Program-made: the position numbers and the translations under genes
Source: Fimbriimonas sp.
Lineage (GTDB): Bacteria; Armatimonadota; Fimbriimonadia; Fimbriimonadales; Fimbriimonadaceae
Direction: 5' to 3'
Length of the DNA stretch: 64,000 nucleotides
NCBI GenBank assembly: GCA_031292555.1
Contig: JARLGV010000104.1
Coordinates: 62,001-126,000, forward strand
Part shown: positions 17,434 to 27,241 of the stretch, in pieces
Position numbering within the stretch: the first letter of the stretch is position 1
Layout: the number at the start of each line of letters is the position of its first letter
The notes under the pieces: generated by a model
Database searches by the model: none
What the model saw: the letters and a program-made list of their open reading frames with translations, nothing else
What the model was told of the DNA's origin: nothing

Positions 17434-20400
17434 ATGCGAACTGTACGCACCAACGACTTCTTTGTTTCTGGCGGGACGTTGCCGCTTGATTCTGCAAGCT
17501 ATATCCAGCGAGACTGCGACAAAGTCCTTTTCAATGCGCTGCGCGAGTCGAGATACTGCTATGTCCTAAACACGCGTCAGATGGGGAAGTCGTCACTTTC
17601 CGTGCGCGTGTTGGCGGATTTGGAGTCCGCCGGGTGGAAAACTGTCTCGATCGATTTGACTCAGATGGGCGGACGGAATGTCACGCCCGAGCAGTGGTAT
17701 GCGGGCTTGGCATCGGAGGTCGGGCGAGCCCTGGGCATTCGCGCCGAGGTTCTGCAGTATTACCGAGACCAGGAGGCGGTTGGACCCATGCGCCGCTTTT
17801 TTGCTGCACTTCGAGATGTCGTACTCGAACATTTCGAACAGCCGGTTACGATCTGCATCGACGAGATCGATGCGACACGCAACCTTCCGTTCGACACGGA
17901 TGAGTTCTTCGCCGGAATTCGTGAGTGCTTTAACCACCGGGTGGTAGATCCCGCCTACCAAAGGCTGACTTTCTGCCTCATCGGAGTGGCAGTTGCCAAC
18001 GATCTGATCCGCAATCAAACCACCACGCCGTTCAACATCGGCGAGCGCATTTATCTGGCGGACTTCACGCTTGCAGAGATGCGTAAGCTGGAATTGCCGC
18101 TCGGGCCGAATGCTCGCCAAGTCGTAGAACGTATCCACTTTTGGACCGACGGTCATCCTTTCCTTAGCCAAAGCTTGTGCTCGGCAATCTGGAATGACGA
18201 AGGGCTTCAAACTCGGAATGAAGTAGATCGACTTGTCCGTGACACTTTCTTGGGGCCAAAGGCGCGGGACCGGAACGTCAACCTTGCCGACGTGGCAAAT
18301 CGCGTGCTGAATTCAGCTCCGGTGGACGCCGACTCAGATGGATTTCGGGCCGATGTTCTGTCGACCTACCAGAAGATCCTTGCCGGAAGAGTGGTGTCAG
18401 ACGACGAGGCGAACAGGACGGTTAGTGTTCTTAAGCTATCGGGACTGGTTCGCTCTACGGGGGGAAGGCTTCGGGTTCGAAACCGGATCTACGAAAGGGT
18501 GTTCGACCGGGCTTGGATTCGCGAGAACATGCCTGGCCAAGAGGTCGCACGCCAGCTTCAGTCGTTTCGCCGAGGACTGGTTCGTGCCACCGTTGTGTAC
18601 GGTCTCGTCCTGGCCGCCGTCGCCATCCTGGGGTTGGCAACTTGGAACTCGGAACGAAAGGCGACTGCTGCGCGGGCCGCTCTGGATAGGGAAGTCTACG
18701 TTGCCGACATGAACAACTTACGGTCCTTCGAGGAGGATGGCGACGAGGCAAGAATCGCAGAGATCCTGGAACGGACTCGTAACAGCCCTTATCGAGGTTT
18801 CGAATGGGGGTATTGGCTTAATCGGTTGCACGATTCTAAAGAGGAGTATTCGCTCGACTACTTCGCTCCGGGTAAACGGGAACGAGGCGTGCTTTCGCGC
18901 GATAATCGATCAATTTGCCTGATCGACGATCTGACCTTGACAGCTTCGGTCGTGGACCGAGTGACCAAGAAACTCGTTCGGACGGTGCCGCTTCGGAGCC
19001 GTGACGAGGTGATGGCAACTCACATTGGCTTCGTCATCGTGAACTACGATACGAATCCGGGCACAGTGACCGAGCTTCTGACCGGCAAGCTAGTCTCAAC
19101 ATTCGGCGGGAGCCATGTCGGATTCGAACCTCAATCGTCTCAGGAAGATTCTGACTTCCTCCTGATCCGTGAAAGAGGTCCAAAAGGGCTTGCACCAGAC
19201 AACCTGACGCTTTGGAATGTGACTACAGGAAAGAGAGTCTTCGATTACACGGTTGGCAGTTCGCTGTCTCTCACGCAGGTCATGTACTCGAATGATGGAT
19301 CCCGCTTCTTGATGTGCGAAAACCGGGATGGGCTGACGAACGTGCGGGTGTCGGTATGGAACACCTCAACGAACTCGAAAATAGATGAGTTCACGTTGCC
19401 GGCTCGCAGTATGGTGTTGAATATCTCGACCGACGGTTCACAGGTCATCTATACCGACGGAACCAATGCGCTCGGTGGTCGAAACACTTTGTTTCATCAA
19501 GCAGTTTTCCGGCGATCTCTTGTGGCGGGCGAGAATCCGGTTGCCGCTCGCTTTGCCGATAAGGACAGGGCCATCGCTGTGATGGACGGAACGGGAACCG
19601 TTTCGGTAGAGGAATATCCCGCCGGTCGATCCATGGGATCCCGTTTCAATGTTTGGAACTTGTCGTCGTCCATGAACGGGGGCCTTTTGGTTACCTCCTC
19701 CTCTTCGGTTAGGGTTATCGATGTCCATCAGGTGGTAGCCGCAAGCGTAATATCGAGAGGATTTCGGGTGGGCCGGGACGGCCTCGGCCACATCATCGTT
19801 TTCGGCGTCAGCCCACGGTGGCTGCTGCAGTTGACGGACCCGACACTTTCGCCGATCCGATATTATGGTGAAAAACCAGGGTTGCGGATGTATACCTACA
19901 ATGGCCGGTGGGCCCTAATTGTCGATCAGCGGAAGCACGTCGCCTGGCTCAACGATACGTCGGGTCGCTATCCCGACGTTCAGATAGTGAAGGTCCCCGT
20001 CAACTTCTCATGCGGCTTGCAACGCGATACGATGGCCATCTATGTGCCGCAGTCAGGCGAGATCAACGGACTCTCGGCAATCGATGGCTCGCTGAGGTGG
20101 AGCTATAGACTCCCAGATCCACGAACAAACGGTGTTTGGGTCACACCGGACGGGAAGAACGTCATCGCCTTCTCCGGCGGAAAATATGTCGTTGTGCTCG
20201 ATGCGCGGACCGGGAAGTTACGTGGCGTGCTTGAACCCCACAACCTTCGCGTGTCGAACCTCACTTTCACCTCGGACGGCGCCGCTTTCTTTACCTTTGG
20301 GGCGGATGGACGGGTGACGCTGTGGGACATCGCAACGTTGACGCAGCGCATGGAATTCCGGGGAAACACCGGACAGCGCGTGACGAGCGCAGATCTTTCG

Positions 20401-20652
20401 CCGGACGGTAGGCGTGTTGTGACGACTACTGAAGGCGGAAGTTGGCTGATCTACGATGCAGCGACCGGCGTGCTGCTTACCACGGTGAAGGCAACTGTCG
20501 GGCCCCTGCGCGGCGCGTTGTTTACAAGTGACGGGAAACGTCTGGTGACGGTTGGCGCAGACGATGTCGTTCGGGTCTGGCAATCGCTCGACCGGGACCC
20601 TTCCGTGCGAGTTCCGGTGGATGCTGCGTTTCTCAAAGGCATCAAAAGGTAG
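17434..20652 (+). CDS. AAA-like NTPase with membrane helix and WD40-type beta-propeller
   Basis: 1072 residues. Residues about 8-345 match the 'AAA-like' (PF14516-type) NTPase domain: an unusual P-loop NTRQMGKSSL (46-55), Walker B ICIDEID (140-146), and the TPFNIGERIYLADFT segment typical of the family. A winged-helix-like stretch (305-365) ends the domain. One membrane helix follows (about 383-404). The outer half (about 430-1072) is a string of degenerate propeller blades, clearest near the end where TSDGAAFFTFGADGRVTLWD, SPDGRRVVTTTEGGSWLIYD and TSDGKRLVTVGADDVVRVWQ are three successive WD-like units. NTPase plus repeat-sensor architecture is typical of STAND-like switch proteins. The next gene encodes a related NTPase domain fused to TIR, 106 bases away. 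Confidence 0.85.
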   Translation: MRTVRTNDFFVSGGTLPLDSASYIQRDCDKVLFNALRESRYCYVLNTRQMGKSSLSVRVLADLESAGWKTVSIDLTQMGGRNVTPEQWYAGLASEVGRALGIRAEVLQYYRDQEAVGPMRRFFAALRDVVLEHFEQPVTICIDEIDATRNLPFDTDEFFAGIRECFNHRVVDPAYQRLTFCLIGVAVANDLIRNQTTTPFNIGERIYLADFTLAEMRKLELPLGPNARQVVERIHFWTDGHPFLSQSLCSAIWNDEGLQTRNEVDRLVRDTFLGPKARDRNVNLADVANRVLNSAPVDADSDGFRADVLSTYQKILAGRVVSDDEANRTVSVLKLSGLVRSTGGRLRVRNRIYERVFDRAWIRENMPGQEVARQLQSFRRGLVRATVVYGLVLAAVAILGLATWNSERKATAARAALDREVYVADMNNLRSFEEDGDEARIAEILERTRNSPYRGFEWGYWLNRLHDSKEEYSLDYFAPGKRERGVLSRDNRSICLIDDLTLTASVVDRVTKKLVRTVPLRSRDEVMATHIGFVIVNYDTNPGTVTELLTGKLVSTFGGSHVGFEPQSSQEDSDFLLIRERGPKGLAPDNLTLWNVTTGKRVFDYTVGSSLSLTQVMYSNDGSRFLMCENRDGLTNVRVSVWNTSTNSKIDEFTLPARSMVLNISTDGSQVIYTDGTNALGGRNTLFHQAVFRRSLVAGENPVAARFADKDRAIAVMDGTGTVSVEEYPAGRSMGSRFNVWNLSSSMNGGLLVTSSSSVRVIDVHQVVAASVISRGFRVGRDGLGHIIVFGVSPRWLLQLTDPTLSPIRYYGEKPGLRMYTYNGRWALIVDQRKHVAWLNDTSGRYPDVQIVKVPVNFSCGLQRDTMAIYVPQSGEINGLSAIDGSLRWSYRLPDPRTNGVWVTPDGKNVIAFSGGKYVVVLDARTGKLRGVLEPHNLRVSNLTFTSDGAAFFTFGADGRVTLWDIATLTQRMEFRGNTGQRVTSADLSPDGRRVVTTTEGGSWLIYDAATGVLLTTVKATVGPLRGALFTSDGKRLVTVGADDVVRVWQSLDRDPSVRVPVDAAFLKGIKR

Positions 20653-20758
20653 TTGAACGATGGTGGGGGTTGTCAGTTATCCGCTATCTTCGGCAATAAT
20701 GCTATGACTAAATACGAGGAACCGTCAGAGGAACGGGCCTGGAGGGTGAGGGCGTACC

Positions 20759-22219
20759 ATGGTGGTAATTCTCTATAAACGAAATGCTTCGCCGGATGAT
20801 CGCATTCTCGATCTCCTTGAGTCCGCGTTAACATCGCAAGGCATACCGGTCTTCATTGATCGTCATCTCAGGATCGGTGTGGAGTGGGCTCAGAAGATCG
20901 AAGAGTCGATCCGAGCGGCGAGTTGGGTGATCGCTATCTTGTCGGATGCGGCATCAGGCAGCGAGATGCTTGAATACGAACTGGAGACGGCCGCCGATGA
21001 ATTCAAGAAACGTGGCTCGCCTAATTTAATCCCGATCAAGGTGGGCGAGCTGAAGCCCTTGGAAGGTCCGCTTGCCTCGCTAGTCAACGGCGTGCAGTTC
21101 GCAACATGGCAAGGGCCGTCGGACGATGACCGGCTTGTGCGCGAAGTGCTCGAAGTTGTTACCCAGGAATCGAAATCTGCACGGAATTTGGGAGCGGCGG
21201 TCGAGAGAATAGAGGCCACCGGCGGCGCAGTTCCTGCTACTTCGAAATTCTATACGCTGAGGGATACCGACGCCGACTTTGAGGACGCAATTCGGGGGAA
21301 CGAGAGTGTGATTCTCGTAAAGGGGCCCCGGCAGATTGGCAAAACTTCGCTGATCGGTCGCGGCGTTGCCTTGACTCATCGCTTGGGTTGGCGTTGTGTT
21401 ACTACCGATTTTCAGGTGCTAAGCTCGTTTCAACTGCTCCACGAGGATCACGCGATGAGGGTCTTTGCCGCCATGCTGGCTCGGCAGACTGGTTTCTACT
21501 ACGACTTTGAGCGGGAGTGGCTCGATGTATTCGGGCCCTCAATGAACCTTGACCACTTTATGCGCGCATTCCTTGAGGATCGCGAGGAACCTCTGGTTTG
21601 GTTCATGGATGAGGCTGATCGTATCTTTGTGACGCCATTCTCAAACGACTTCTTCGGCGTTGTACGGTCCTGGCACAACGCCCGGGCGCGCGATCCTAAG
21701 GGTCCATGGGGTCGGTTCACCGTTGTCATCGGATATGCAACCGAGGCTCGCCTGTTTATACGCGACCTGAACCAGTCTCCGTTTAACGTTGGGCGTCAGA
21801 TCGCGCTGAAGAGCTTCACCATCGACCAGACCGCCGACTTGAACGACCGCTATGGCAAGCCGATCGATCGACGATCGGACCTGGAAGCGCTTCAATTCCT
21901 GCTTTCTGGCCAACCGTTCCTGACGAGAAAAGCACTTGAGCTTCTGGCGACCGGCAAGTTCACATTCTCGACTCTAATGGATGTCGCCGATCGAGACGAC
22001 GGGCCCTTTACCGATCACCTCCGGCGCATCTTGGTGTCTGTTTCGCACAATCCCTCGGTCCTATCCGTGATACGGTCGTCCCTGGCAATGCGGATGCCGG
22101 CGAACTCAGACAGCGTCGAACGGCTCCTTGCCGCAGGCGTCCTTAGGGAAACCCAATTTGGCGGAGTCGACTTGGCATGCGACCTTTACACCCGCTATTT
22201 GGCCAGACATATCCCCTGA
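20759..22219 (+). CDS. TIR domain fused to AAA-like NTPase
   Basis: 486 residues. Residues 1-135 form a TIR domain: first strand VVILYKR, helix, GIPVFIDRHLRIGVEW loop, SWVIAILSDAA strand, and LEYELETA in which Glu74 aligns with the NADase catalytic Glu of SARM1-type TIR domains. Residues about 162-430 are an AAA-like NTPase with P-loop GPRQIGKTSL (189-198), Walker B WFMDEAD (281-287) and a QSPFNVGRQIALKSFT segment matching the TPFNIGERIYLADFT of the upstream protein. The start has GAGGG six bases upstream. The likely role is a nucleotide-controlled NAD-cleaving or signalling effector, as in bacterial anti-phage TIR proteins. This is inference from domains; no neighbour confirms the target. 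The stop codon lies within a hairpin. Confidence 0.88.
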   Translation: MVVILYKRNASPDDRILDLLESALTSQGIPVFIDRHLRIGVEWAQKIEESIRAASWVIAILSDAASGSEMLEYELETAADEFKKRGSPNLIPIKVGELKPLEGPLASLVNGVQFATWQGPSDDDRLVREVLEVVTQESKSARNLGAAVERIEATGGAVPATSKFYTLRDTDADFEDAIRGNESVILVKGPRQIGKTSLIGRGVALTHRLGWRCVTTDFQVLSSFQLLHEDHAMRVFAAMLARQTGFYYDFEREWLDVFGPSMNLDHFMRAFLEDREEPLVWFMDEADRIFVTPFSNDFFGVVRSWHNARARDPKGPWGRFTVVIGYATEARLFIRDLNQSPFNVGRQIALKSFTIDQTADLNDRYGKPIDRRSDLEALQFLLSGQPFLTRKALELLATGKFTFSTLMDVADRDDGPFTDHLRRILVSVSHNPSVLSVIRSSLAMRMPANSDSVERLLAAGVLRETQFGGVDLACDLYTRYLARHIP

Positions 22220-23322: not shown

Positions 23323-23619
23323 TTAGTGGTGCTCGGCTCGGTTCGCCCACTTCTCTTCGCGCTGGGCATAATCGCGCTCCACCACTGGCGGAACGACGAT
23401 CGTTACGACGATCGCAGCAACGATCGTCGCGACAAAGAAGATCGCTGCCCATAGGGCGCCCGTATGTATCTGCGCAACCTGTAGGTCGACAATATGCCAG
23501 CGGTCGCCGAAAATGGTGCCAAGGTAGAAGCCCAGCAAAGTGATCAGACACGGGCTGAGAATCCATGCCATGAACAGAGCGAACTTCGTTTCGTGACGTT
23601 GGAACGATGGAGGTAGCAT
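23323..23619 (-). CDS. Small membrane protein with two helices
   Basis: 98 residues from the ATG at 23619. Two strong hydrophobic segments (about residues 15-40 and 52-80) are separated by a short GDRWHIVDLQVAQIHTG loop, and the charged tail ends EEKWANRAEHH. I do not recognise a family. A TTG six codons upstream is an alternative start, but a -10-like CACAAT ends seven bases before the ATG. A longer overlapping frame to 23710 is less likely because it lacks this clear membrane pattern. Confidence 0.6.
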   Translation of the reverse strand: MLPPSFQRHETKFALFMAWILSPCLITLLGFYLGTIFGDRWHIVDLQVAQIHTGALWAAIFFVATIVAAIVVTIVVPPVVERDYAQREEKWANRAEHH

Positions 23620-23764
23620 CCCACCTATTGTGTCCAAAAGGGATGTCGATTTGCACGTATCCGATGGCTTGCGGGATCACGCGAGTGTTCGGCAGACCAG
23701 GCGCTCCCACTAACTAACCTCCATTAGGGTGTAACCGATCGTCTTGTGAACCGTCATTTCCGAC

Positions 23765-24079
23765 ATGCGATACGGAACGATGACGATCATGATGTTGACT
23801 GCCGCGCTGGCGGTGGCGGGCACGGGTCTCAAGCAGCAATTCGACCACGCTCCCATCAGATTTGCCATTCATCATGCCGACCCGTGGGCCATCAAGGCAA
23901 TGCTTGAGGGAGCTTCGCTTACGAGTCCGGAGATGAGCGTTCTGTGGGCGTTTGGCGGCGGCGCCGGGGGTACAAACGCTGGAGCCGGAGCCGCCGGCGT
24001 GCCGTTTCTCGCCGATGGCTACCTGGTGGTGAATCCGACCGACAATAGCATCTGGTGGTACCCGAAATCCTACCGCTGA
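23765..24079 (+). CDS. Small secreted protein, STN-like
   Basis: 104 residues. A hydrophobic leader (about 20 residues, MTIMMLTAALAVAGTG) precedes PIRFAIHHADPWAIKAMLEG, which resembles the strand-helix start of secretin N-domains, then a Gly/Ala-rich loop and a final pair of strands (GYLVVNPTDNSIWWYP). It is probably periplasmic. It may belong with other STN-like orphan proteins of this lineage, such as the one at 5320-7302. The function is unknown. Confidence 0.55.
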   Translation: MRYGTMTIMMLTAALAVAGTGLKQQFDHAPIRFAIHHADPWAIKAMLEGASLTSPEMSVLWAFGGGAGGTNAGAGAAGVPFLADGYLVVNPTDNSIWWYPKSYR

Positions 24080-24094
24080 TCGAGGCTGCGAATC

Positions 24095-24856
24095 CTATCG
24101 ATTTGCGGTCTCGCCAACCGGCGACAGAACGAAGTTCTTGATCGTGTCGGTCTCGAAGCTCTTCTCCACGATTCCTCTTTGTGTCATCTCAGCGAAGATC
24201 TCCTCGGAGAGGATGTTCCGAATGTCCTTGTAGATCAGCGAGATACGCCGCGAACCGCCGGTGTCGTAAACCCAGAGTTCGCCACCGTCGTTCATCATTC
24301 CGAGGATCGCCGACAAGTCATCGACCTCACGGCCGACCTCTTCCTTGCCTGCGCCCAGGTTGCGACCTGGACGGCGTCGGAACTGGAACGCCTCAAGCAA
24401 TGGCATGCCCGACTGGAGGTTTTTGCGGAGCGTCATCTCGGAAACACTGCATCGCTCGTCTTGAGCCCATTCACGGATCGTCTTCGATTCGCCGAAGATC
24501 TCGTAAGTTGGACCATTCCCTTCGCGACGACCTCGGTTGACCGATAGCGGGGTAGTGAACGCAGCTTCGGGAGTCCATCCGTGCTGGATCCGTCGGATGA
24601 ACACGTTTGGCTTGACCAGAACGCGACCATCGTCCTTCCATTCGCTGATCGTCTTGCGGTCTCCGAAAGCCTCAATCGTCACAGGTGGTCGGCTGTACTT
24701 GCGCTCCTTGCGCTCAGCAGGTTGAGTGAGCGCGTCGGCAGCGGGCCACTCCTCGTCGAGTCGCTGAACAAGGGTTCCGTACTTTACGACGCAACGAGGA
24801 TCGCGCGACCACTCAATGATCGGCTTCCTTTCGCCAAAAGCCTCTACAAAAGGCAT
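24095..24856 (-). CDS. Protein with three AP2/HTH-like repeats (phage-type nucleic acid-binding motif)
   Basis: 253 residues. Three repeats of about 43 residues (4-46, 60-103 and 117-158) share the pattern E-(A/I)-FG-(E/D)-x-K-x-I-x-EW-x-x-D-x-R, a Val, then an amphipathic helix and an A-(L/F). The motif occurs in phage and plasmid proteins next to homing-type nucleases and is thought to bind DNA. The C-terminal 80 residues (175-253) are mixed alpha/beta without a recognised nuclease site. In-frame codons upstream of the ATG spell NNPLYRRF, which is also typical before this motif, so the true start may be a rarer codon upstream or the 5' end may be eroded. AT-rich DNA precedes it, suggesting a foreign origin. 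Confidence 0.65.
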   Translation of the reverse strand: MPFVEAFGERKPIIEWSRDPRCVVKYGTLVQRLDEEWPAADALTQPAERKERKYSRPPVTIEAFGDRKTISEWKDDGRVLVKPNVFIRRIQHGWTPEAAFTTPLSVNRGRREGNGPTYEIFGESKTIREWAQDERCSVSEMTLRKNLQSGMPLLEAFQFRRRPGRNLGAGKEEVGREVDDLSAILGMMNDGGELWVYDTGGSRRISLIYKDIRNILSEEIFAEMTQRGIVEKSFETDTIKNFVLSPVGETANR

Positions 24857-25198
24857 GAATCTTCGATACAGCGGATTATTACGGATGGAGGGCTCTCCTC
24901 AATTCAAGGTTTACGTCATCAAGGATACGCATCAGAGATTTTATAGAATTTGATGAATTGCTATCTGTTACCGATAACGATTCCGCAAAGTTTACACGAT
25001 TTGTATATATTAGACAACCTGTGCAGGCAGGATCTCTGCGAGACCATTATGTTTAGAGTACGAAATGTGGTTTGCGCGTCCGATTTAGGCTTTTGCAATC
25101 ACTAGATCGACACCAAGGATTCAACATTTGAGACGTGATCGCGGAAGTTGTGTTCCCGGTGTTTGTTCCTGATTTGACCGGATAAACTGGGTATTCGC
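24857..25198. other. AT-rich 342-base gap between divergent genes
   Basis: No gene or RNA fold is seen. Base composition is visibly more AT-rich than the rest of the window, particularly 24940-25020. On the minus strand TTGTCT (25012-25017) and TAAACT (24989-24994) are 17 bases apart and could drive the repeat protein. On the plus strand TAAACT at 25183-25188 ends ten bases before pheT and may be its -10. Confidence 0.35.
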
Positions 25199-27241
25199 AT
25201 GAAGTTCCCCTTTTCGATGCTCCTTGATTACGTTTCCACCGCGCTCGATGCGGCGGAAGTCGGCGATTTGCTTACCATGGCCGGTTTCGAACTGGAGGGC
25301 ATTGACTTGGTCGAGGGCCATTCGGTGCTCGATATCAAGGTGATGAGCAATCGCGGAGATGGCCTTTCCGTCTTTGGTCTGGCGCGCGAAGTACTCGCTA
25401 GAGACCCCGCCGCGAGCCCGACCGGCCTCTACCACCGGGCTGCGGGCCGGTTCAAGGACTGCGAAATGGGAACCGAGATTGCAGAGACCGATGTTTCGAT
25501 CGAGACTCCTGCATGCGGACGATACGCCTGTGTTCTCCTAAAGGGCGTTGCGAATGGCGACTCAATGCCTTGGGTCCAGGATCGGTTGGTCAAGGCGGGG
25601 ATGAGACCCATTAGCCTGCTCGTGGACGTGACGAACTACGTGATGCTTGAGCTTGGACAGCCTCTCCACGCCTTTGATTTTGACCGACTGGTAGGGGGAC
25701 GAATCGTCGTACGCGAAGCATCGCCCGGTGAACAGATCTCGACCCTTAACGGCATCGAGCATCAGCTGGAAGCTGGGCAAATGATGATCTGCGATGCCGA
25801 AAGGCCGGTGGCGGTCGCCGGTGTCATGGGTGGCGGCGAAACCGAAGTCGATGCTGATACATCGAACGTGCTACTCGAATCGGCCCACTTTTCCAGCATG
25901 AGCGTCCGAAAGACCAGGAAACAGCTTGGCCTAAATACTGAGGCCTCCTATCGATTTGAGCGAAGCGTCGATCCCGACGGAGTGGTAGCAGCACTTCATC
26001 GGTGTGTCGAATTAATCCGAGAAGGTTGTGCTGGAGTAGTGGGTACATCAGTCGTCGACCGGTATCCCGGCAAGTCGGAACGATCACCACTGGAACTGAG
26101 AGTTGACCGAGTTTGCCGGATGCTCGGGATGAAGGTTACGACCGATGAGGTGCGCGGCTACCTGACAAGACTGGGATTCGAGGTCCATGCAACCGAAGAG
26201 GGCGTGCTCGCCGTGACACCACCCTCATGGCGACCGGATGTCGTCCGTGAGATCGACTTGATCGAGGAAGTTGGGCGAGTTCACGGCTACGACCGAATTC
26301 CGGAGATGCTCCTGGATGGCGTGACGAAGATGGGTGGCCCGCAAGGCTTCGAACTCTGGACCGATTGGCTTCGGCAGGCAGTATTGCGAGCCGGCTTGAC
26401 ACAGACGATCAGCCATTCAATGCGAGATCTCCATCCGTTGGACGAAGCGGAGTCCAACCGAATTGGACCGCGGATACCGGCCTCGCCAGATACGGGGTAC
26501 TTGCGCAATTCGCTTCTGCCGTCCTTGGCTGATGCGGTGCGTCGCAACAATCCGAAGGAATCCCACCTATTCGAACTTGGTCGCGTTTTCTGTGGGCAAC
26601 ATGGCGAGTACCTTGAGACTCTTCGCCTGGCGGCCATGGTTGCGGGGCCGATCGTGCCCGCCGGCTGGTCCCATGCCGAGCTGGGCTCCTCCAGCTTCTT
26701 CACAGTCAAGGGCCTTCTGGAATCAGCGATGGAGGCAGTTGGGGTTTCTCTTCGCTTCGAAGCCAAGTGCTTGGACAAGCGTCTGCATCCGACTCGGCAG
26801 GCTCGTGTATGGGCAGGAGATAAGTCGATCGGCGTTATCGGCCAGTTACATCCAGATTCTGCCCAGCATTGCGGGCTTCCTGTCGAAACAGTCGTCTTCG
26901 AAATACTCGTGCGCGATGCGTTCGATTCACGGGATTCGGCCTTGCGGCTCAAGCCGGTGAGCCGTCACCCGGCGGTCCGTCGCGACATTTCGGTTCTAGC
27001 TGACCAATCGGTCGCATACGAGACCGTATCCCAGGTAATCGCCGGTGCGGTTGGGACCGTGCTTGAGCGGCAGTGGCTGTTCGATGAGTTCGTGGGGCAA
27101 GGGATTCCTGACGGGAAAAGGGCACTTGGAATCGCCCTCCAGTTTCGCAAGCCTGATTCGACCTTTACCGATGAGGAAGCGAACCTGGTGCGGGATCGAG
27201 CCGTGGCGGCGCTTGCCGAGATCGGGGCGACCACGCGATAA
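25199..27241 (+). CDS. pheT: Phenylalanyl-tRNA synthetase beta subunit, short form without tRNA-binding domain
   Basis: 680 residues against about 790-800 in typical PheT. The N-terminal 35 residues (MKFPFSMLLDYV, TMAGFELEG) match domain B1, but the sequence then runs straight into VLDIKVMSNRGDGLSV, skipping the B2 OB-fold (EMAP-type) domain of about 115 residues. The B3/B4 region (AGVMGGGETEVDADTSNVLL), B5 (PPSWRPDVVREIDLIEEVGR) and the C-terminal FDX-ACB anticodon-binding domain (KPVSRHPAVRRDISVLAD) are present. It acts with PheS to charge tRNA-Phe in the cytoplasm. pheS is not adjacent, unlike the common pheST arrangement. The last 77 bases overlap an opposing gene. Confidence 0.95.
   Translation: MKFPFSMLLDYVSTALDAAEVGDLLTMAGFELEGIDLVEGHSVLDIKVMSNRGDGLSVFGLAREVLARDPAASPTGLYHRAAGRFKDCEMGTEIAETDVSIETPACGRYACVLLKGVANGDSMPWVQDRLVKAGMRPISLLVDVTNYVMLELGQPLHAFDFDRLVGGRIVVREASPGEQISTLNGIEHQLEAGQMMICDAERPVAVAGVMGGGETEVDADTSNVLLESAHFSSMSVRKTRKQLGLNTEASYRFERSVDPDGVVAALHRCVELIREGCAGVVGTSVVDRYPGKSERSPLELRVDRVCRMLGMKVTTDEVRGYLTRLGFEVHATEEGVLAVTPPSWRPDVVREIDLIEEVGRVHGYDRIPEMLLDGVTKMGGPQGFELWTDWLRQAVLRAGLTQTISHSMRDLHPLDEAESNRIGPRIPASPDTGYLRNSLLPSLADAVRRNNPKESHLFELGRVFCGQHGEYLETLRLAAMVAGPIVPAGWSHAELGSSSFFTVKGLLESAMEAVGVSLRFEAKCLDKRLHPTRQARVWAGDKSIGVIGQLHPDSAQHCGLPVETVVFEILVRDAFDSRDSALRLKPVSRHPAVRRDISVLADQSVAYETVSQVIAGAVGTVLERQWLFDEFVGQGIPDGKRALGIALQFRKPDSTFTDEEANLVRDRAVAALAEIGATTR

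Follow-up and report, generated by a model that had tools for sequence, protein, structure and literature searches.

Conserved start codons other than AUG, GUG and UUG have been characterised for few bacterial genes (PMC5472188), and a survey of start-codon change reports two switches to AUU among all reconstructed ancestral AUG and GUG starts (PMC5622118). Non-canonical starts are repressed by IF3 in E. coli and Streptomyces, the described cases being infC itself and Streptomyces sigR, which starts at GTC (PMC5472188). The only E. coli genes stated to have AUU starts are two, infC and pcnB (PMC9410913). Conserved starts have also been mapped for S. aureus cvfC1 (AUU) and ccpN (AUA), and in poor medium these gave about 10% of the expression obtained with AUG; one of three S. 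aureus non-AUG starts, the AUU of cvfC1, is reported to be without a medium effect (PMC13009471). In the open-access literature, we recognised no report of an AUH-type start in the phylum Armatimonadota or of the repeat protein described below.

Here we describe a gene that most likely starts at such a codon, in a window (the whole 64,000-nucleotide stretch of DNA analysed) within contig C27 of a 6.46-Mb Fimbriimonas genome (G000). Read from its ATG, the open reading frame spans 24095–24856 on the minus strand and encodes 253 residues, comprising three copies of a repeat of about 43 residues and a C-terminal domain (hereafter the tail). The repeats lie at 24719–24847, 24548–24676 and 24377–24505 (minus strand; profile matches L001:2122–2250, L001:1951–2079 and L001:1780–1908, respectively), and the tail at 24098–24295 (minus strand). 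The gene is flanked by the divergent pheT (25199–27241, plus strand; identified with Pfam) on one side, and on the other by two conserved neighbours, a convergent 104-residue gene without a Pfam family (23765–24079, plus strand) and a gene for a small membrane-type protein (23323–23637, minus strand). A previous sequence-only reading had pointed out that NNPLYRRF is encoded in frame directly before the ATG, which we confirm, and had suspected a non-ATG start, which the orthologues support. The gene is thus proposed to run from an AUC codon (24884–24886) to its stop over 24095–24886 (minus strand; 263 codons before the stop), on the evidence of the open frame, the leader and the orthologues in four species.

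The ten-codon coding leader 5′ of the internal ATG (IRNNPLYRRF; 24857–24886, minus strand) aligns with the leaders of three orthologues, which read IRNKPLFRRI in genome G019, IPIPPYNRRF in G005 and IRTGPIHKRF in G004. Its first codon is ATC in the window and G019, and ATT in G005 and G004. A Shine–Dalgarno-like AGGAG (24895–24899, minus strand), read from the sequence and the alignment, lies 8 nt 5′ of the ATC; read by eye, 8 nt separate the end of such a core (AGGAG in three species, GAGG in one) from the ATC or ATT, and a scripted search with four-letter cores gave spacings of 10, 9, 10 and 8 nt. An in-frame TGA (24899–24901 in the window, minus strand) closes the frame four codons before the ATC or ATT in the window, G005 and G004; the frame of G019 stays open for 29 further codons upstream, with no usual start there. 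The codon corresponding to the internal ATG is ATG in the window and G019, GTT in G005 and ATA in G004. As comparison establishes, no ATG, GTG or TTG precedes repeat 1 in G005 and G004 (loci L007 and L008), whose open frames first contain one at codons 38 and 61. Leader differences at the three codon positions number 24, 22 and 36 of 54 comparisons each, and this third-position excess is a better sign of coding than a shuffle test (0 of 20,000), which is weak as it ignores the shared ancestry of the DNA.

A start-codon control, in which one frame was taken per place and pairs were scored by the number of identical residues that precede the first usual start, ranked the pairs of this gene as the top six of 60 orthologue pairs (9 to 42 residues; the next pair had 8). 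The window–G019 pair alone barely tops the next gene (9 versus 8 identical residues). This control replaced a looser version, whose many flagged pairs included antisense shadow frames and genes whose start falls slightly within the alignment; it speaks for parts of four contigs only, and 34 of its 60 pairs compare the window's genome with G019. The assignment of the AUC/AUU start draws on four orthologues, a small number, and in the window and G019 the internal ATG ten codons further on could in principle serve. Two more distant homologues appear to start at TTG (G017) and ATG (G008), so the AUC/AUU start seems confined to the pheT-linked clade.

In the genus, infC itself appears to use codons of the same kind, reading as starting at ATA in 14, ATC in 5 and ATT in 1 of 20 genomes (loci L101–L120), some of which are close relatives. 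These starts were read by eye in the 25 codons upstream of the IF3 family match, the start being called as the codon behind an SD-like stretch that opens a conserved I-x-x-F motif. The repeat-protein gene resembles infC (AUU, AUC or AUA start) and E. coli pcnB in that its near-cognate AUH start is conserved and preceded by an SD sequence, but it encodes a different protein and its control by IF3 is something we infer. It also resembles Streptomyces sigR, whose product is a regulator acting on DNA and whose conserved non-canonical start is misplaced by gene finders; sigR differs in that it is a sigma factor, uses GTC rather than ATC or ATT, and has control that is described as proven (PMC5472188). 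S. aureus cvfC1 and ccpN likewise have conserved AUH starts and encode small regulator-like proteins, but their starts were mapped by ribosome profiling and lie behind very strong extended SD sequences, as reported in PMC13009471, whereas the SD-like core here spans 4–6 bases.

The sequence-only reading had taken the gene for a possibly eroded foreign one, and the comparison with other genomes speaks against this. In G019, G005 and G004, the gene lies between a divergent pheT and the same convergent 104-residue gene; the small membrane-type protein comes next in all three, and a dehydrogenase beyond it was matched in G019 only. pheT is present in all 20 genomes of the genus, and the repeat-protein gene was found directly upstream of it in four and absent there in 16, with up to 1.5 kb upstream being covered. 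The G010 contig extends for only 155 bases there, and no copy was found in that genome. The two distant homologues are located elsewhere, away from pheT (G017 and the congeneric G008, a single contig of 5,231,762 bases). The GC content of the gene follows that of its surroundings in each species (56.7 and 56.5% in the window, 49.7 and 49.8% in G019, 54.2 and 54.6% in G005, 55.0 and 55.1% in G004). Identity of the repeat protein is 70.7% between the window and G019, 62.2% between G005 and G004, and 52.1–54.6% across these pairs; the corresponding values for pheT are 67.5%, 68.2% and 60.0–65.5%. As far as these identities indicate, the species pairing of the gene is that of pheT, with somewhat faster change across pairs. 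Homologues sharing the composition of their genomes and a common Met start would have contradicted a foreign origin according to the earlier reading; the composition is indeed shared, but the Met is not, since two of the four pheT-linked orthologues lack it. On the strength of these comparisons, settlement is established: a phage-type protein has long had its place next to pheT in a small number of Fimbriimonas-like bacteria from lakes.

The three repeats that had been read in the frame are real, and their proposed likeness to motifs of phage and homing nucleases is borne out: the protein matches PHROG 3377 (phage HNH endonuclease) beyond chance (E = 4e-13, profile positions 99–189 of 196). 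Five further homologues match the same profile at E = 8e-9 or better (L010, 1e-8). In all six family members scanned, the best stretch starts at profile position 92–104 and the nuclease half is unmatched, whereas Rhodococcus phage Peregrin gp61 matches from position 16. The family thus shares with these endonucleases the repeat at profile positions ~92–192, but it differs in the unmatched nuclease half and in having a tail of its own. The nuclease part is therefore missing, as had been suspected, but as the family's own architecture and not through the recent trimming that had been proposed, because only the repeat half is matched in six of six members.

A search with a repeat profile, as the sequence-only reading had suggested, picked up further copies in the fetched loci. 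Across 130 distinct rows of the repeat alignment, W and D are present in every row having the position (127 and 126 rows, respectively), and R in 126 of 128 such rows. Of the nine positions that vary most, five (23, 24, 27, 28 and 31) lie in the predicted second helix, each repeat being predicted by AlphaFold2 to form a β-hairpin followed by three helices. Compared with solved structures, a single repeat gave three Foldseek matches (best E = 1.7) and, in a second comparison, none at Z 2. A fold search against viral models returned four matches at E ≤ 0.001 with TM-scores below 0.4, from which we draw nothing firm. Designed PPR proteins were set aside as repeat relatives, their profile matches being sums of 1–2-bit hits to identical artificial repeats. 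With the whole protein as query, every Pfam family stayed below its cut-off (best, Lsr2_DNA-bd at 13 bits versus a cut-off of 26.9), and the best E-value listed for 93 single repeats was 0.011. NUMOD matches were absent for the protein and from the listing for the 93 single repeats, although such short motifs are easily missed. The repeat part is basic (pI 9.4–9.8) and the tail acidic (pI 4.4–5.6). As no solved structure matches a single repeat, DNA binding is suggested by domain company and charge.

Salmonella phage SPN9CC has one repeat after an HNH_3 domain. A protein search of 50,697 phage records gave matches in 14, each covering 17–22% of the protein, and a search of 72,556 plasmid records gave matches in three, one of which, on a Streptomyces plasmid, reaches 72% coverage and 34% identity. 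The gene for a Streptomyces plasmid protein with three-repeat similarity (L150, 1294–2151, plus strand) adjoins a Ku gene, and a Streptomyces frame (L073, 1182–3065, plus strand) has one repeat copy beside GntR-type winged helices. Among viral contigs, a single-protein query gave three pattern matches, none of them a relative, and an alignment query gave relatives in 7 of 19 stretches. Within the same class, the repeat alignment matches 16 of 113 genomes, and eight loci of these have arrays of 5–11 repeats (L048, with the array at 583–2853 on the minus strand; L061, L052, L049, L015, L016, L050 and L064); a further Armatimonadetes contig (L070) has eight repeats. These arrays share the repeat with our protein but have more copies of it, and the tail was not found outside six genomes of the genus; the arrays may represent modular DNA readers. 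The window's genome has further repeat copies, in which the matched stretches contain stops, TAA in one (G000:C81:81646–82338, L002) and TGA in another (G000:C16:28133–28372, L005). The repeat protein had no match among PADLOC models. Elsewhere in the window, at 17434–22219 (plus strand), an AAA_35 and WD40 protein (17434–20652) is followed by a TIR and AAA_35 protein (20759–22219) whose TIR part matches PADLOC TIR models weakly (best E = 3e-5); the two genes are possibly a defence or signalling pair.

The tail had been described as a novel partner domain, and its lineage specificity is upheld: of the 291 genomes of the phylum, six gave a match, and all six belong to this genus. It is predicted with pLDDT values mostly of 86–93 and aligns best with MarR-type winged helices, weakly (Z up to 5.9 over 63 residues, r.m.s.d. 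2.6). None of 996 chains compared reaches Z 8, and the best Foldseek match has an E-value of 0.074. A profile of the tail gave nothing below E = 0.065 against the sequences of solved structures, and a pattern scan of viral contigs gave 12 pattern matches with no relative among them. The predicted model thus appears weakly winged-helix-like.

The AT-rich flanks noted earlier were followed in a GC profile and reduce to the 312 bp upstream of the gene, with 42.9% GC, a value as low being found in 0.2% of sampled 312-bp windows. The gene itself has 57.3% GC when counted from the ATG and 56.7% when counted from the ATC; these values, its GC3 and the 60% of the 15 bp downstream resemble the window (56.5%). 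The AT-rich flank is thus only the upstream promoter and leader region. A candidate promoter, TTGTCT-N17-TAAACT (24989–25017, minus strand), was recognised in the alignment and lies 102 nt 5′ of the ATC; the pattern TTG-N3-N17-TANNCT recurs in all four species, 100–103 nt before the proposed start, with chance values of 1.6–3.6% per region that are post hoc. A generic promoter scan did not list this site and listed a different one at chance rate. The promoter assignment is tentative, as the pattern came from inspecting the alignment and went unreported in that scan. No Rfam match was found up to E = 1 in 23600–25300, where an RNA element in the leader would lie.

Three other accounts of the locus can be weighed against these data. 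Translation from the ATG at 24854–24856, with the ten preceding codons as untranslated leader, agrees with the presence of ATG at that codon in the window and G019. However, G005 and G004, with GTT and ATA there and no usual start before repeat 1, lead us to reject it; the conserved protein sequence of the leader, its third-position excess and an SD-like core placed for the ATC rather than the ATG all point the same way, and we regard this start as very unlikely. Frameshifting from, or reinitiation after, an upstream ORF is least probable of all: a 17-codon ATG ORF overlaps the start in the window and a TTG ORF crosses it in the window and L007, but in L006 and L008 the scan showed no ORF of this sort spanning the start, and an arrangement that is not common to all four is rejected. 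A decaying remnant of a foreign homing-type nuclease that has lost its catalytic half would account for the matches to phage HNH families and for the related, stop-containing repeat stretches elsewhere in the genome. It is contradicted by the intact, syntenic and composition-matched copies with conserved tails in four species, and is rejected as highly improbable on synteny, composition and species pairing; full-length orthologues at the same place, with GC like their surroundings, argue that the gene is no eroded newcomer.

We therefore lean, with some reserve, towards a domesticated, nuclease-free phage-type DNA-binding regulator beside pheT that starts at AUC or AUU, is scarce and is sensitive to IF3. 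A phage-type module without its nuclease would have acquired the tail and taken up its place next to pheT in a single Fimbriimonas-like clade. Its three hairpin-plus-helix modules would bind DNA, and the acidic, winged-helix-like tail may make a second contact, giving the protein DNA targets and a regulatory role. Translation most likely begins at the conserved AUC or AUU codon behind a well-placed Shine–Dalgarno sequence, a start with good support, and scarcity would follow from the known behaviour of near-cognate start codons. As with infC and sigR, a shortage of IF3 relative to 30S subunits would increase synthesis, and by this analogy the amount of protein made may track the condition of the translation apparatus. 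More tentatively, and with the balance of probability somewhat against it, the locus would be an IF3-read switch in Armatimonadota, independent of infC, pcnB, sigR and ccpN, in which a chromosomal DNA-binding protein becomes more abundant when the ratio of IF3 to ribosomes falls. The same start evidence would fit a real AUC/AUU start that only keeps a costly DNA-binding protein always scarce, IF3 level being no signal. That account, itself possible but rather doubtful, is favoured by the roughly tenfold lower output of S. aureus non-AUG starts in poor medium and the indifference of the cvfC1 AUU to medium (PMC13009471). Against it stand the repression of such starts by IF3 reported for E. coli and Streptomyces (PMC5472188) and the apparent retention of the same kind of start by infC in this genus.

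Conserved non-AUG starts are already known as a kind, and the gene beside pheT would be a new case. Gene finders cannot see AUH-type starts; the case was detectable because two orthologues lack any usual start, which provides a simple comparative rule for finding more. The repeat, having no Pfam family and occurring in long arrays, could be a modular DNA-reading unit. If control by IF3 is true, the gene would illustrate how a DNA-binding module of mobile elements became resident with its start codon as the point of control, in a phylum distant from the model species.
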